From contig JAFGWN010000049.1 in NCBI GenBank assembly GCA_016937115.1, forward strand, positions 1 through 46,079: a DNA stretch of 46,079 nucleotides. The letters run 5' to 3'. The notes below the pieces were generated by a model. That model worked only from the letters and a program-made list of their open reading frames with translations. It made no database searches and was not told where the DNA came from. The DNA comes from Balneolaceae bacterium. Its GTDB lineage: Bacteria; Bacteroidota; Rhodothermia; Balneolales; Balneolaceae. Of this stretch, positions 356 through 41,983 are shown piece by piece (positions within the stretch are counted from its first letter, which is position 1; each line of letters begins with the position of its first letter). Both the position numbers and the translations under genes were made by a program.

Positions 356-712
356 CTATCTTGTTTTCTTTATCATGTTGGAAAGCATGGCAAATACGTG
401 GTTCATGCGGTCATCAAAATCCGAAAGTTTATCATCGGGCACAAAACTCAATTTGCGCGATACTTCCAATTGCGTATCGATCTCAACCAGAGACGAACGC
501 GCTATTTCATAAAAACGGCGCCGTTCCTTCGCTGATTTACGTGCTGCGCCTTCCGCAATATTTGATGCGATGGAGACCGCCGCCCTCCGCATCTGGGAAG
601 ATAAGCCATATTGCTCACTTTTCGGAAAGGAACGTGTAATTTCATAGATATTTGACGTCAATACGATGCTCTTTTTCCACACCTCCAGTTTCTTATGCTG
701 TAAATTAATCAT
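356..712 (-). CDS. Four-helix bundle protein (23S rRNA intervening-sequence protein / Avd-like family)
   Basis: MINLQHKKLEVWKKSIVLTSNIYEITRSFPKSEQYGLSSQMRRAAVSIASNIAEGAARKSAKERRRFYEIARSSLVEIDTQLEVSRKL is the family signature. ATG at 712 preceded by GGAGAGAG; the listed ORF extends to a TTG at 724. Confidence 0.9.
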   Translation of the reverse strand: MINLQHKKLEVWKKSIVLTSNIYEITRSFPKSEQYGLSSQMRRAAVSIASNIAEGAARKSAKERRRFYEIARSSLVEIDTQLEVSRKLSFVPDDKLSDFDDRMNHVFAMLSNMIKKTR

Positions 713-745
713 GACTCTCTCCAATCTTAGTTAAAGTTAATGCCA

Positions 746-36637: not shown

Positions 36638-36940
36638 ATGTCAGCCCTGATTTTCAACTTATTTATATTTGTACTGGCTTCTTTTGTTGGTTTTGAACTC
36701 ATCTCAAAAGTACCGCCCACGCTGCACACGCCGTTGATGTCCGGAGCGAATGCCATTTCGGGAATCACCATCATCGGGGCGCTGGTAGTAGCAGGTCAAA
36801 CCGGCAGCATTTATGCCCAATGGATTGGGTTGGTGGCAATCATTTTTGCTACAATTAATGTGGTAGGCGGATTTATGGTGACGGACCGCATGCTGGAAAT
36901 GTTCAAGAAGAAAGACAAAAAGGAGGACACCGATGAGTAA
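36638..36940 (+). CDS. pntAB: NAD(P) transhydrogenase subunit alpha, part 2 (membrane domain)
   Basis: FVLASFVGFELISKVPPTLHTPLMSGANAISGITIIGAL. Confidence 0.96.
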   Translation: MSALIFNLFIFVLASFVGFELISKVPPTLHTPLMSGANAISGITIIGALVVAGQTGSIYAQWIGLVAIIFATINVVGGFMVTDRMLEMFKKKDKKEDTDE

Positions 36941-38351
36941 CTTTTTACCTCCTTCTGTACAGGTCTGGATTCCAGAAATTATTCAGCTTTTTTATCTCTT
37001 GGCAACCGGGGTTTTTATTGTTGGAATTAAGCGTCTGGGATCTCCTGCTACGGCCCGTTCGGGCAATCAGCTTGCAGCACTTGGTATGTTGATCGGGGTG
37101 ATTGTTACCCTTTTTGACCAGCAGATTCTCTCATTTGAATTTATCATTGCCGGTATCGTTATTGGCTCTGCCATTGGTGCTTTTGCCGCCAAAAAAGTAG
37201 AGATGACCGCCATGCCCGAAATGGTGGCGATCTTTAACGGGTTTGGAGGTGGTGCCTCGGCACTGGTTGCGTGGGGCGAATTTTCTCGTGCAGCACCTGC
37301 AGCATTCGGCATCCAGGACCTGGTGACCATTGGGCTCAGTATTCTTATCGGTTCAATTACATTTACGGGAAGCTTTATTGCTTTTGGCAAACTGAAAGGA
37401 TTTATCAGCGGAAACCCGGTAACCTTTCCCGGGCAGAATATCTTCAATCTGCTTCTTACACTTTGTACATTTGGCTTGGTTGGGTGGTTTGCCGTTGATC
37501 CAAACGCACAAATTGCATTCTGGCTTATCTTTGGTATTGCGCTGCTGCTTGGGGTACTCACCGTTATGCCCATTGGTGGTGCCGATATGCCGGTTGTTAT
37601 CTCGCTGCTGAACTCATACTCCGGTCTGGCGGCAGCCATGGCGGGCTTTGTGATCAATAATAATCTGCTCATCATCAGTGGTGCGCTGGTAGGCGCAGCG
37701 GGACTTATCCTCACCAACATCATGTGCAAAGCGATGAACCGCACACTCACCAACGTACTGTTCGGCGCATTTGGAGGAAGTAATTCAACCACTGGTAGCC
37801 CGGCTGCCGATACCGACCGAACCGTTCGTGAAACCACGCCCGAAGATGTAGCCCTGCAGTGTGCTTATGCCGATAAAGTAATCATCACACCGGGATACGG
37901 TCTGGCAGTAGCGCAAGCTCAACACGTGCTCAAAGAGGTGGCTGACAAGTTAGAAGCCCGTGGAGTTGAGGTAAAGTACGGCATCCACCCCGTAGCCGGA
38001 CGAATGCCCGGGCACATGAACGTGTTGCTGGCCGAAGCCGACGTGCCCTACGATCAGCTTTACGATATGGAGCAGATCAATCCGGAATTTAAATCAACGG
38101 ATGTGGTGCTTATTATCGGTGCGAATGATGTCGTGAACCCGGCGGCCAAAACGGAAACTGGCAGCCCTATTTATGGCATGCCGATCCTGAACGTGGACGA
38201 AGCCGACCGGACGATTATTTTTAAACGGAGCCTTAGTCCCGGTTTTGCCGGCATTGATAATGAGCTATTTTATCGGGAATCAAACCAAATGTTCTTTGGT
38301 GATGCAAAGGATTCGCTGCAGAAACTTTCACAGGCATTGAATGATGTTTAG
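36933..38351 (+). CDS. pntB: NAD(P)+ transhydrogenase subunit beta
   Basis: GADMPVVISLLNSYSGLAAAMAGFVINNNLLIISGALVGAAGLILTNIMCKAMNR; VIITPGYGLAVAQAQHVLKEVADKLEARGVEVKYGIHPVAGRMPGHMNVLLAEADVPYD; overlaps pntAB by 8 nt. Confidence 0.97.
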   Translation: MSNFLPPSVQVWIPEIIQLFYLLATGVFIVGIKRLGSPATARSGNQLAALGMLIGVIVTLFDQQILSFEFIIAGIVIGSAIGAFAAKKVEMTAMPEMVAIFNGFGGGASALVAWGEFSRAAPAAFGIQDLVTIGLSILIGSITFTGSFIAFGKLKGFISGNPVTFPGQNIFNLLLTLCTFGLVGWFAVDPNAQIAFWLIFGIALLLGVLTVMPIGGADMPVVISLLNSYSGLAAAMAGFVINNNLLIISGALVGAAGLILTNIMCKAMNRTLTNVLFGAFGGSNSTTGSPAADTDRTVRETTPEDVALQCAYADKVIITPGYGLAVAQAQHVLKEVADKLEARGVEVKYGIHPVAGRMPGHMNVLLAEADVPYDQLYDMEQINPEFKSTDVVLIIGANDVVNPAAKTETGSPIYGMPILNVDEADRTIIFKRSLSPGFAGIDNELFYRESNQMFFGDAKDSLQKLSQALNDV

Positions 38352-38561
38352 TCACAGGTTTGCACGGATCTAAACGGAATAATCTTAAAATAGCCTGAGC
38401 GTCTGCTCATGCTAAGCATCTTTCTCGTACCATCGCTCCGCGGTGGGACATATTCTCAGACGCTCCGCGTCATAAATATACGCAGAGCGTGTATCTGCCA
38501 GCCACAGCTGCAGAGCGACTGTAGGAGAAAATTATTCATTAATTTGTGCTAAATCTGTGGC
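38352..38561. repeat. Structured convergent intergenic element: terminal inverted repeats plus hairpin cluster
   Basis: cacaggtttgcac (38353-38365) vs gtgctaaatctgtg (38546-38559); internal hairpins 38392-38413, 38427-38449, 38459-38471, 38476-38494. Confidence 0.7.
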
Positions 38562-39830
38562 TCACTCCACTTCTGCATCCTGCTCATAAGTTTTGATAGC
38601 CCAGAGAAAACAGATTGTCGCTGCCAGTCCGCAGAAAAAGAACACGCTTAGCAGTGCTTTGGAAACGCCATATGGACCGGTAAACACATGATCGATCAGC
38701 CAGCCCGCAAATGGCGGCCCAATGCCAAATCCCACAATGCTGATCATAAAAAGATAGACCGAACCGGCAAAGCCCCGCATATCATCCTTTACAAAATATT
38801 GGATAAGCGCCGCAGCAAGTCCGTTATAGGATGAGGAGATTACGTTGCCGATGCCGATCAATATAAAGGCCGTAAAAACAGATTCAGCAAAAAGTCCGAA
38901 GTAGTAAAAGGGGAGCCCGCCCAGTGCGGCAACTACAGCCATCCAGAAGCGTCTTGCAGATCCCCATCGCTCGGCCATGCGGTCGGCCAGCCAGCCCGAG
39001 CAGTTCACGCTGATGCCTGTCAAAAACATGAACCAGCCGTAACTTGCAATGTAGGATGGCGCGTTATAGACATCGGTAAATACCGTGCCAATAAACGCCA
39101 GCAATGTGTAACCCAGCATGGCTAAAAATGAGAAGCCAGCCAGGTGTAGCCAAATAGTTTTTTTCGCGGCCATGAAATGCACAACTTCGGCTAATGTTCG
39201 GCCTGATTCATCCCGGTCTTTGCTAAATCTGCGGGTGGGTTCCCGCAAAGCAACCACTCCCACTGCCGCAAGTATAAATCCCGGAATGGCTACCGCATAG
39301 AGCGCAGTCCGCCAATCATAGGCCTGGGCCACCGATCCGCCAATCAGGAATGACAGGCCAATACCCACAAAAATTCCTGAAGCGTAGATGGAAAATACCG
39401 TTGCCCGCTGATTCGGTTTAAAATAATCGGCCAGCAAAGAATAGACAGCCGGGCTAAGCGCCGACTGGCTCACCCCAACAAAGAAACGCGCCGTAACCAA
39501 AAAAATGAATGAATAGGCAACGCCGCTGATGAGGGTCATTAAACTCCAGACGGTTAACCCAACCAAAATAATTCGCTTGCGCGAAAACTGATCAGCCATG
39601 CGTCCCATAAACAATCCGCAGGCCGCATAAACGAGCGAAAATGCCGGGCCGTACAGCACACCGATTTGCGTGTTGCTAAGCCCTAATGCCTGGCGGATAT
39701 TTGTACCCAATACAGCAATGATCTGCCGGTCAACAAAACTGCAGATATAGATCAGTGTAAGAAGCACCAGTGCAAACCAGGCATAATTTGCACTTATTTT
39801 ACGAATCACTGATTTTTGCGAGGTATTCAT
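38562..39830 (-). CDS. MFS transporter
   Basis: VLLTLIYICSFVDRQIIAVLGTNIRQALGLSNTQIGVLYGPAFSLVYAACGLFMGRMADQFSRKRIILVGLTVWSLMTLISG. Confidence 0.94.
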   Translation of the reverse strand: MNTSQKSVIRKISANYAWFALVLLTLIYICSFVDRQIIAVLGTNIRQALGLSNTQIGVLYGPAFSLVYAACGLFMGRMADQFSRKRIILVGLTVWSLMTLISGVAYSFIFLVTARFFVGVSQSALSPAVYSLLADYFKPNQRATVFSIYASGIFVGIGLSFLIGGSVAQAYDWRTALYAVAIPGFILAAVGVVALREPTRRFSKDRDESGRTLAEVVHFMAAKKTIWLHLAGFSFLAMLGYTLLAFIGTVFTDVYNAPSYIASYGWFMFLTGISVNCSGWLADRMAERWGSARRFWMAVVAALGGLPFYYFGLFAESVFTAFILIGIGNVISSSYNGLAAALIQYFVKDDMRGFAGSVYLFMISIVGFGIGPPFAGWLIDHVFTGPYGVSKALLSVFFFCGLAATICFLWAIKTYEQDAEVE

Positions 39831-41901: not shown

Positions 41902-41909
41902 AATCCTTT

Positions 41910-41975
41910 CTTGTCATCCTGAACTCCGTTCAGGATCTAAGATCGCAGATGCTGAAATAAATTCAGCATGACAAG
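41910..41975. repeat. Nested palindromic intergenic element (REP/MITE-like)
   Basis: Outer arms cttgtcat (41910-41917)/atgacaag (41968-41975); inner hairpins cctgaa-ctccg-ttcagg (41919-41935) and gctgaa-ataaa-ttcagc (41951-41967). Confidence 0.85.
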
Positions 41976-41983
41976 GTTACTAT

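Follow-up and report, generated by a model that had tools for sequence, protein, structure and literature searches.

The 210 nt that separate pntB from the convergent gene of an MFS transporter in this Balneolaceae genome are probably a decayed REPIN core nested within a second inverted repeat, i.e., a lineage-specific insert that is tolerated in a tail-to-tail gap. We base this proposal on the anatomy of the spacer, the match of its core to a dispersed sequence family, the linkage of that family to RAYT genes elsewhere and a near-empty orthologous spacer in a relative. The element belongs to a known kind, the REPIN, as a further member, and a stop-adjacent inverted repeat is now linked to a RAYT/REPIN family that spans phyla. 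To our knowledge, REPINs have been little described in this bacterial group.

Anatomy of the pntB/MFS spacer

The window, i.e., the whole stretch of 46,079 nt analyzed here, comes from an assembly of 2.62 Mb in 246 contigs that is 86.6% complete and, among the genomes searched, the only representative of the genus; gene calls are mechanical open reading frames (ORFs). The insert, its parts and its two neighbors are:

36933–38351, plus strand: pntB, the NAD(P) transhydrogenase beta subunit (Pfam PNTB, 636 bits); its stop adjoins the insert
38352–38561, unstranded: the whole insert, a near-full-length imperfect palindrome that fills the pntB/MFS convergent spacer (sequence; RNA and DNA folds)
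38353–38383, plus strand: left outer arm, readable as a degenerate 10-nt array, CACAGGTTTG-CACGGATCTA-AACGGAATAA, which pairs with the right arm
38391–38414, plus strand: small side hairpin, TAGCCTGAGCGTCTGCTCATGCTA, that separates the left arm from the REPIN (fold)
38424–38527, unstranded: REPIN core, CTCGTACC...REP...central hairpin...REP...GTAGGAG (fold and sequence matches)
38430–38446, plus strand: left REP hairpin CCATCGCTCCGCGGTGG (sequence, fold and match to copies in named genomes)
38459–38490, unstranded: central hairpin GACGCTCCGCGTC-ataaatat-ACGCAGAGCGT (three genome copies)
38502–38521, minus strand: right REP arm, degenerate (CCACAGCTGCAGAGCGACTG), the folding partner of the left REP
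38532–38559, minus strand: right outer arm, CACAGATTTAG-CACAAATTAA-TGAATAA in minus-strand reading (sequence, end alignment and fold)
38562–39830, minus strand: MFS transporter gene (Pfam MFS_1, 165 bits); its stop adjoins the insert from the other side

An initial annotation of this DNA had described a convergent 210-nt element whose inverted ends lie 1–2 nt from both stop codons, and the boundaries bear this out: CACAGG starts 1 nt past the pntB TAG (38349–38351), and CTGTG finishes 2 nt short of the stop of the MFS gene (the complement of TCA at 38562–38564). The encoded proteins terminate in ...QALNDV (pntB) and ...DAEVE (MFS), matching the ...QALNEV and ...DAEVE of a relative, G012; hence, the stop codons were not supplied by the insert, and, to judge from these termini, both look native. 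The two ends are indeed imperfect inverted copies, as had been claimed: the outer 60 nt per side align locally with a score of 30, which is reached by 3 of 2000 first-order Markov resamplings (mean 14.9, sd 3.2). On their own, the spacer ends are significant, though not overwhelmingly so.

The whole 210-nt spacer folds as RNA with a minimum free energy of -79.8 kcal/mol (z = -6.1) and, under DNA parameters, with z = -4.8, neither value being equaled by any of 200 shuffles (dinucleotide shuffles for the RNA fold). Pairing runs through the entire spacer, with one side hairpin at 38391–38414 and the outer ~30 nt forming the base of the palindrome; the inverted ends noticed initially are the outer layer of this whole-spacer palindrome. 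Among 220 intergenic regions, drawn from a sample of 20% of the genome's stretches, the spacer ranks second by energy per base, the top-ranked region being the spacer at C154:28733, which carries the same core; it ranks 13th by z against Markov resamplings. No Rfam RNA was detected in the window at gathering thresholds. A classical MITE, with perfect or near-perfect terminal inverted repeats and a target-site duplication, was considered and rejected: the ends are imperfect and gapped, and no duplication is visible in the sequence flanking the insert. RAYT activity is not expected to leave such a duplication.

Within the palindrome, the core of 104 nt comprises two REP palindromes in inverted orientation that form one hairpin, which is the layout of a REPIN; its fold (38421–38528) has z = -3.8, with 0/200 shuffles equal, and it includes a GTAG at 38521–38524. 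The central hairpin, CGCTCYGCG-N-CGCRGAGCG, has three copies in the genome, two of them partial: that of the window, one at C154:28733 between hemC and hemD-like genes with one REP beside the hairpin, and one at C154:16572 between two genes on the same strand. A reversed control pattern gave no match. Two further genomes, both of the same family, contain the hairpin; the other 58 searched have none. The core is diverged: BLAST with the whole element returned only itself above chance, with no full second copy in the genome; likewise, neither the whole element nor its end motif had a convincing copy in 60 relatives, where 3-mismatch matches to the end motif were mostly about as frequent as those to the reversed pattern. 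Active REPIN families typically number hundreds of copies, so that a copy number of three, two partial, is far lower.

The core family and its linkage to RAYTs

A composite core pattern, which required GTGGGA and exact spacing, had no match in 85,462 GTDB species genomes and was replaced for the GTDB scan by the central hairpin pattern. The latter occurs at no fewer than 120 loci, i.e., at least 120, among these genomes; the matches listed are mostly from Pseudomonas, with others from Planctomycetes, Chloroflexi (Ardenticatenaceae) and gammaproteobacterial MAGs. The common layout of the family, GATCGTTCCCACGCTCYGCGTGGGAATGC...GGACGCTCCGCGTCC...GGACGCAGAGCGTCC...GCATTCCCACGCAGAGCGTGGGAACGATC, is an outer REP pair around a central hairpin, just as in the window. 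When the apex hairpin is masked, a score of 34 remains for the alignment of the window core to the copies in named genomes, as against a best of 33 in 200 null trials (mean 21, sd 2.5); the homology of the core thus appears to persist beyond its apex hairpin, the null being beaten narrowly (34 vs. 33).

At five RAYT loci (three from Pseudomonas and one each from Ardenticatenaceae and Planctomycetota), core palindromes lie on both sides of the RAYT gene, and the RAYTs of loci L313, L321 and L325 are 55–56% identical to the first RAYT of this set. RAYTs of the same clade are found in many genomes of the bacterium's own family, at 37–49% identity over most of their length, the best matches reaching 40–49% across almost the entire query. 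Several of these have left flanks of the form CTCGTTCC-GTA-GCTCCGC-TGC-GGAAC followed by a hairpin, and right flanks that are the inverted counterpart, ending in GGAACGAG. The window core aligns to the left flank of one such RAYT (L341) over 59 nt with a score of 36, the maximum of 60 resamplings being 34 (mean 22.5, sd 2.6); the flank match thus appears to outscore its null, if narrowly (36 vs. 34). Between the core and the family flank, the stems have changed on both sides with the pairing kept (ACGCTCCGCGT to AAGCTCTGCTT). Taken together, this alignment and the paired stem changes make the core resemble the joined termini of a RAYT element from which the gene is missing, i.e., a REPIN. Hence, both the five loci and the same-family flank alignment place the core in a family that is linked to RAYT genes.

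The family RAYT clade was not detected in this assembly, where, at 86.6% completeness, one could be missed. The only RAYT-like gene of the genome (on C181) is 25% identical and falls in another group; the palindrome on its flanks, ACATGCCAAGTTTTCAAAACCTGGCATGT, is a different one. Mobilization of the core by this gene was rejected, since another palindrome flanks it. As a separate observation on this locus (L106, G000:C181), AACACATGCCAAGTTTTCAAAACCTGGCATGTGTA occurs on both sides of the gene, at 1686–1720 and 2338–2372, and a related palindrome lies inside it. The missing cognate RAYT lowers the case for present activity more than that for descent.

Orthologous spacers, outer arms and stop proximity

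The convergent pntB/MFS pair is present in ten genomes, this one included. The spacer measures 6 nt (G015), 31 nt (G002), 69 nt (G016), 76 nt (G013), 210 nt (the window) and 624 nt (G012); in four more relatives, it is 794–1162 nt long and another gene may intervene. The pntB of G015 is 84% and that of G012 87% identical to that of the window. In G015, AATGCC alone separates the two stops, and the comparison of empty sites that had been suggested initially thereby yields an equivalent of an empty site, beside the 31 nt of G002; these near-empty spacers belong to other genera, with sequences too different to show the exact junction. As the stops of G015 are only 6 nt apart, the 210 nt either were gained in this lineage or have been lost from the others, and a small ancestral spacer would be the simpler reading. 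The case combines a near-empty orthologous site with a family-specific RAYT whose flanking stems have changed on both sides.

The outer arms lie outside the CTCGT...GAG boundary that the core has in common with the RAYT flanks and are, therefore, treated as a second layer. Each may be read as about three degenerate 10-nt units (CACRGATTNN). The initial annotation had taken the placement of these ends, alongside that of heptad arrays, to suggest a general stop-adjacent repeat class in this genome. For the end motif, CACRGATTTAGCACRGATTWA, this suggestion failed: the genome-wide search for further copies and their distances to stops, allowing up to 3 mismatches, recovered no second match, and in a 538-kb sample the motif was intergenic at the pntB/MFS site only. 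The decad reading is supported by exact arrays of the form GATTN{2,3}CRCRGATTN{2,3}CRCRGATT, which 17 of the 397 genomes examined from the phylum contain, with up to 19 copies in one; the reversed control pattern had no match in the same 397. Some of these arrays form inverted pairs (L176, L163 and L154), most are not inverted, and they are not consistently close to stops. A literature search for the letters of the decad or the core found no paper describing either.

The stop bias that had been predicted for other copies is seen for the inner core elsewhere and not for the end motif, which has no other copies in this genome. Among the matches listed, in named genomes, 14 core copies are convergent, 27 tandem and 8 divergent (24 more overlap mechanical ORFs and 15 sit at locus edges); of the 14 convergent ones, 7 have both stops no more than 20 nt away and 13 have one or both stops within that distance. 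Most REPs between convergent ORFs have been reported to be <20 bp away from the 3' ends of both genes (PMC3733652), and the Tail-repeat-Tail bias of Pseudomonas fluorescens repeats has been explained as the 'least worst' location (PMC2718517). Given this published placement and the same pattern in the core copies of other bacteria, the stop-codon rule is explained without any targeting of stop codons: the element would adjoin the two stops because inserts are purged from promoters, operons and coding regions, whereas those in tail-to-tail gaps are tolerated.

A corresponding stop rule had been claimed for heptad arrays; a stop bias of such arrays is seen in G012, with nothing measurable in this genome. 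In G012, period 7 stands out among periods 5–13, with 31 intergenic arrays and 4 inside genes, and 16 of the 31 lie within 15 nt of a stop as against 4 within 15 nt of a start. The corresponding counts for the seven intergenic period-7 arrays of this genome are 4 and 3. The general class suggested initially thus finds support in the heptads of the related G012, and none from the end motif of the present insert.

Origin of the element, rival explanations and known systems

We envisage the origin of the element as follows. A REPIN would amount to both termini of a RAYT element joined up, minus the gene, and could fold as one hairpin in single-stranded DNA. Going by the RAYT mechanism, a RAYT may have acted in trans on such a hairpin and placed a copy in the spacer; the assembly no longer shows a cognate RAYT, and the copy would have decayed since. 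The outer arms would constitute a separate layer, probably an older spacer palindrome that received the REPIN, or else a second insert around it. The hairpin probably contributes to the termination or 3'-end protection of both mRNAs, which would be a side effect and not the reason for its existence.

That relation might be turned around, with the structure being a bidirectional terminator or mRNA 3'-end stabilizer that was selected at this site to serve pntB and the MFS gene and is not mobile. The convergent position and the strong hairpin would suit this role, the convergent spacers of this genome fold somewhat better than the divergent ones (mean z -1.3 vs. -0.4), and a hairpin-like stretch accompanied by a T-run lies in the spacer of the relative G013 (L364). 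We nonetheless consider it unlikely: the 210-nt structure is not kept in the relatives, whose spacers range from 6 to 624 nt with unrelated sequence, and the core matches dispersed repeats in other phyla. Moreover, the spacer offers only two weak 5-pair terminator-like sites, and an intrinsic terminator, i.e., a GC-rich hairpin with a T-run, was rejected as no T-run follows the main stem. Chance complementarity in an ordinary spacer is extremely improbable: the outer ends alone are occasionally matched by resampling (3/2000) and the site was picked by eye, but the whole-spacer palindrome was equaled by 0/200 shuffles, leading us to reject chance for the whole structure, and the core both matches a family and is repeated in the genome.

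A further possibility is that the arms, rather than the REPIN, define the element as a member of a class of stop-flush inserts bounded by inverted short tandem arrays. The same spacer of G012 does hold a 624-nt insert with inverted heptad arrays and a four-helix-bundle gene, similar cassettes occur elsewhere, and the decad arrays of the phylum include some inverted pairs. However, the decad arms are without another copy in this genome, the other decad arrays are mostly not inverted and inconsistent in their stop adjacency, and the arms fall outside the REPIN boundary, with the REPIN accounting for the core without them; we deem this reading rather improbable. A broader version, in which we place little credence, sees the convergent gene ends of this family as recurrent landing sites for poorly described array-bounded inserts, with heptads around four-helix-bundle genes or decads as here, whose array ends lie at stops; the window element would then be a non-coding, decad-bounded member that took up a REPIN. 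Should the separate observation of four-helix-bundle genes in inverted-heptad cassettes flush with stops hold, it would be a more surprising result than the REPIN.

The preferred reading, that of a decayed REPIN core within a second inverted repeat, places the element beside several known systems. Like REPINs and RAYT-associated REPs (Bertels and Rainey 2011, PMC3116915; Nunvar 2010, PMC2817692), the window core is an extragenic inverted REP pair around a spacer that forms one hairpin, and the likeness extends to the core palindromes that flank RAYTs in other genomes and the related one in this family. In contrast to REPINs, the window element is low in copy number and decayed, its cognate RAYT was not found, and an unrelated outer inverted repeat encloses it. 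Like the GTAG/CGTC-tagged REPs and TIRtrons (PMC3733652), it sits between convergent genes with both stops no more than 20 bp away; this likeness is one of position and layout, with the GTAG noted above as a candidate tag. A further likeness is that the long terminal inverted repeats of TIRtrons flank RAYTs and also occur on their own (PMC3733652). The R0/R1/R2/R6 repeats of P. fluorescens, inverted-repeat elements of 80–177 bp with a Tail-repeat-Tail bias (PMC2718517), are comparable by description. Finally, bacterial heptad tandem arrays (e.g., TAACTGA repeats, PMC4679880) are short-unit intergenic arrays like the window arms, but the latter would have units of 10, only about three of them and degenerate.

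Several arrays and palindromes at other gene ends were also observed. In the 624-nt insert of G012 (L351, 2926–3549), inverted CAGGATA-like heptad arrays start directly at both stops, and the gene within encodes a 124-aa four-helix-bundle protein (PF05635, 23S_rRNA_IVP). At PF05635 loci (L428, L430, L434, L436, L440, L446 and others), inverted heptad arrays often enclose the four-helix-bundle gene, and some of the arrays are flush with the neighboring stops (both, in L428). Period-7 arrays on both sides were found at 5/27 PF05635 loci as against 0/15 RAYT and 0/29 pntB loci, and the mean inverted flank score was 33.6 for PF05635 loci vs. 17.2 for pntB loci. Directly after the pntB stop, G042 has an (ACATCCA)n array (L377) and G004 a heptad palindrome of GATGGAT units (L361), indicating that arrays at the end of this gene are independent in several genera. 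In the window itself, the gene at 356–724 (minus strand) matches PF05635 at 380–694 and has heptad-like arrays (CGTCTGCC, GCCGTCT) on both sides, at 284–355 and 748–790, the right one adjoining the stop of the gene at 790; these are probably the heptad arrays of the initial annotation. Another convergent spacer of the window, at 41902–41983, is filled by a palindrome, TTGTCATCCTGAAC...TTCAGCATGACAAG, which we take to resemble a CGTC-type REP dimer.
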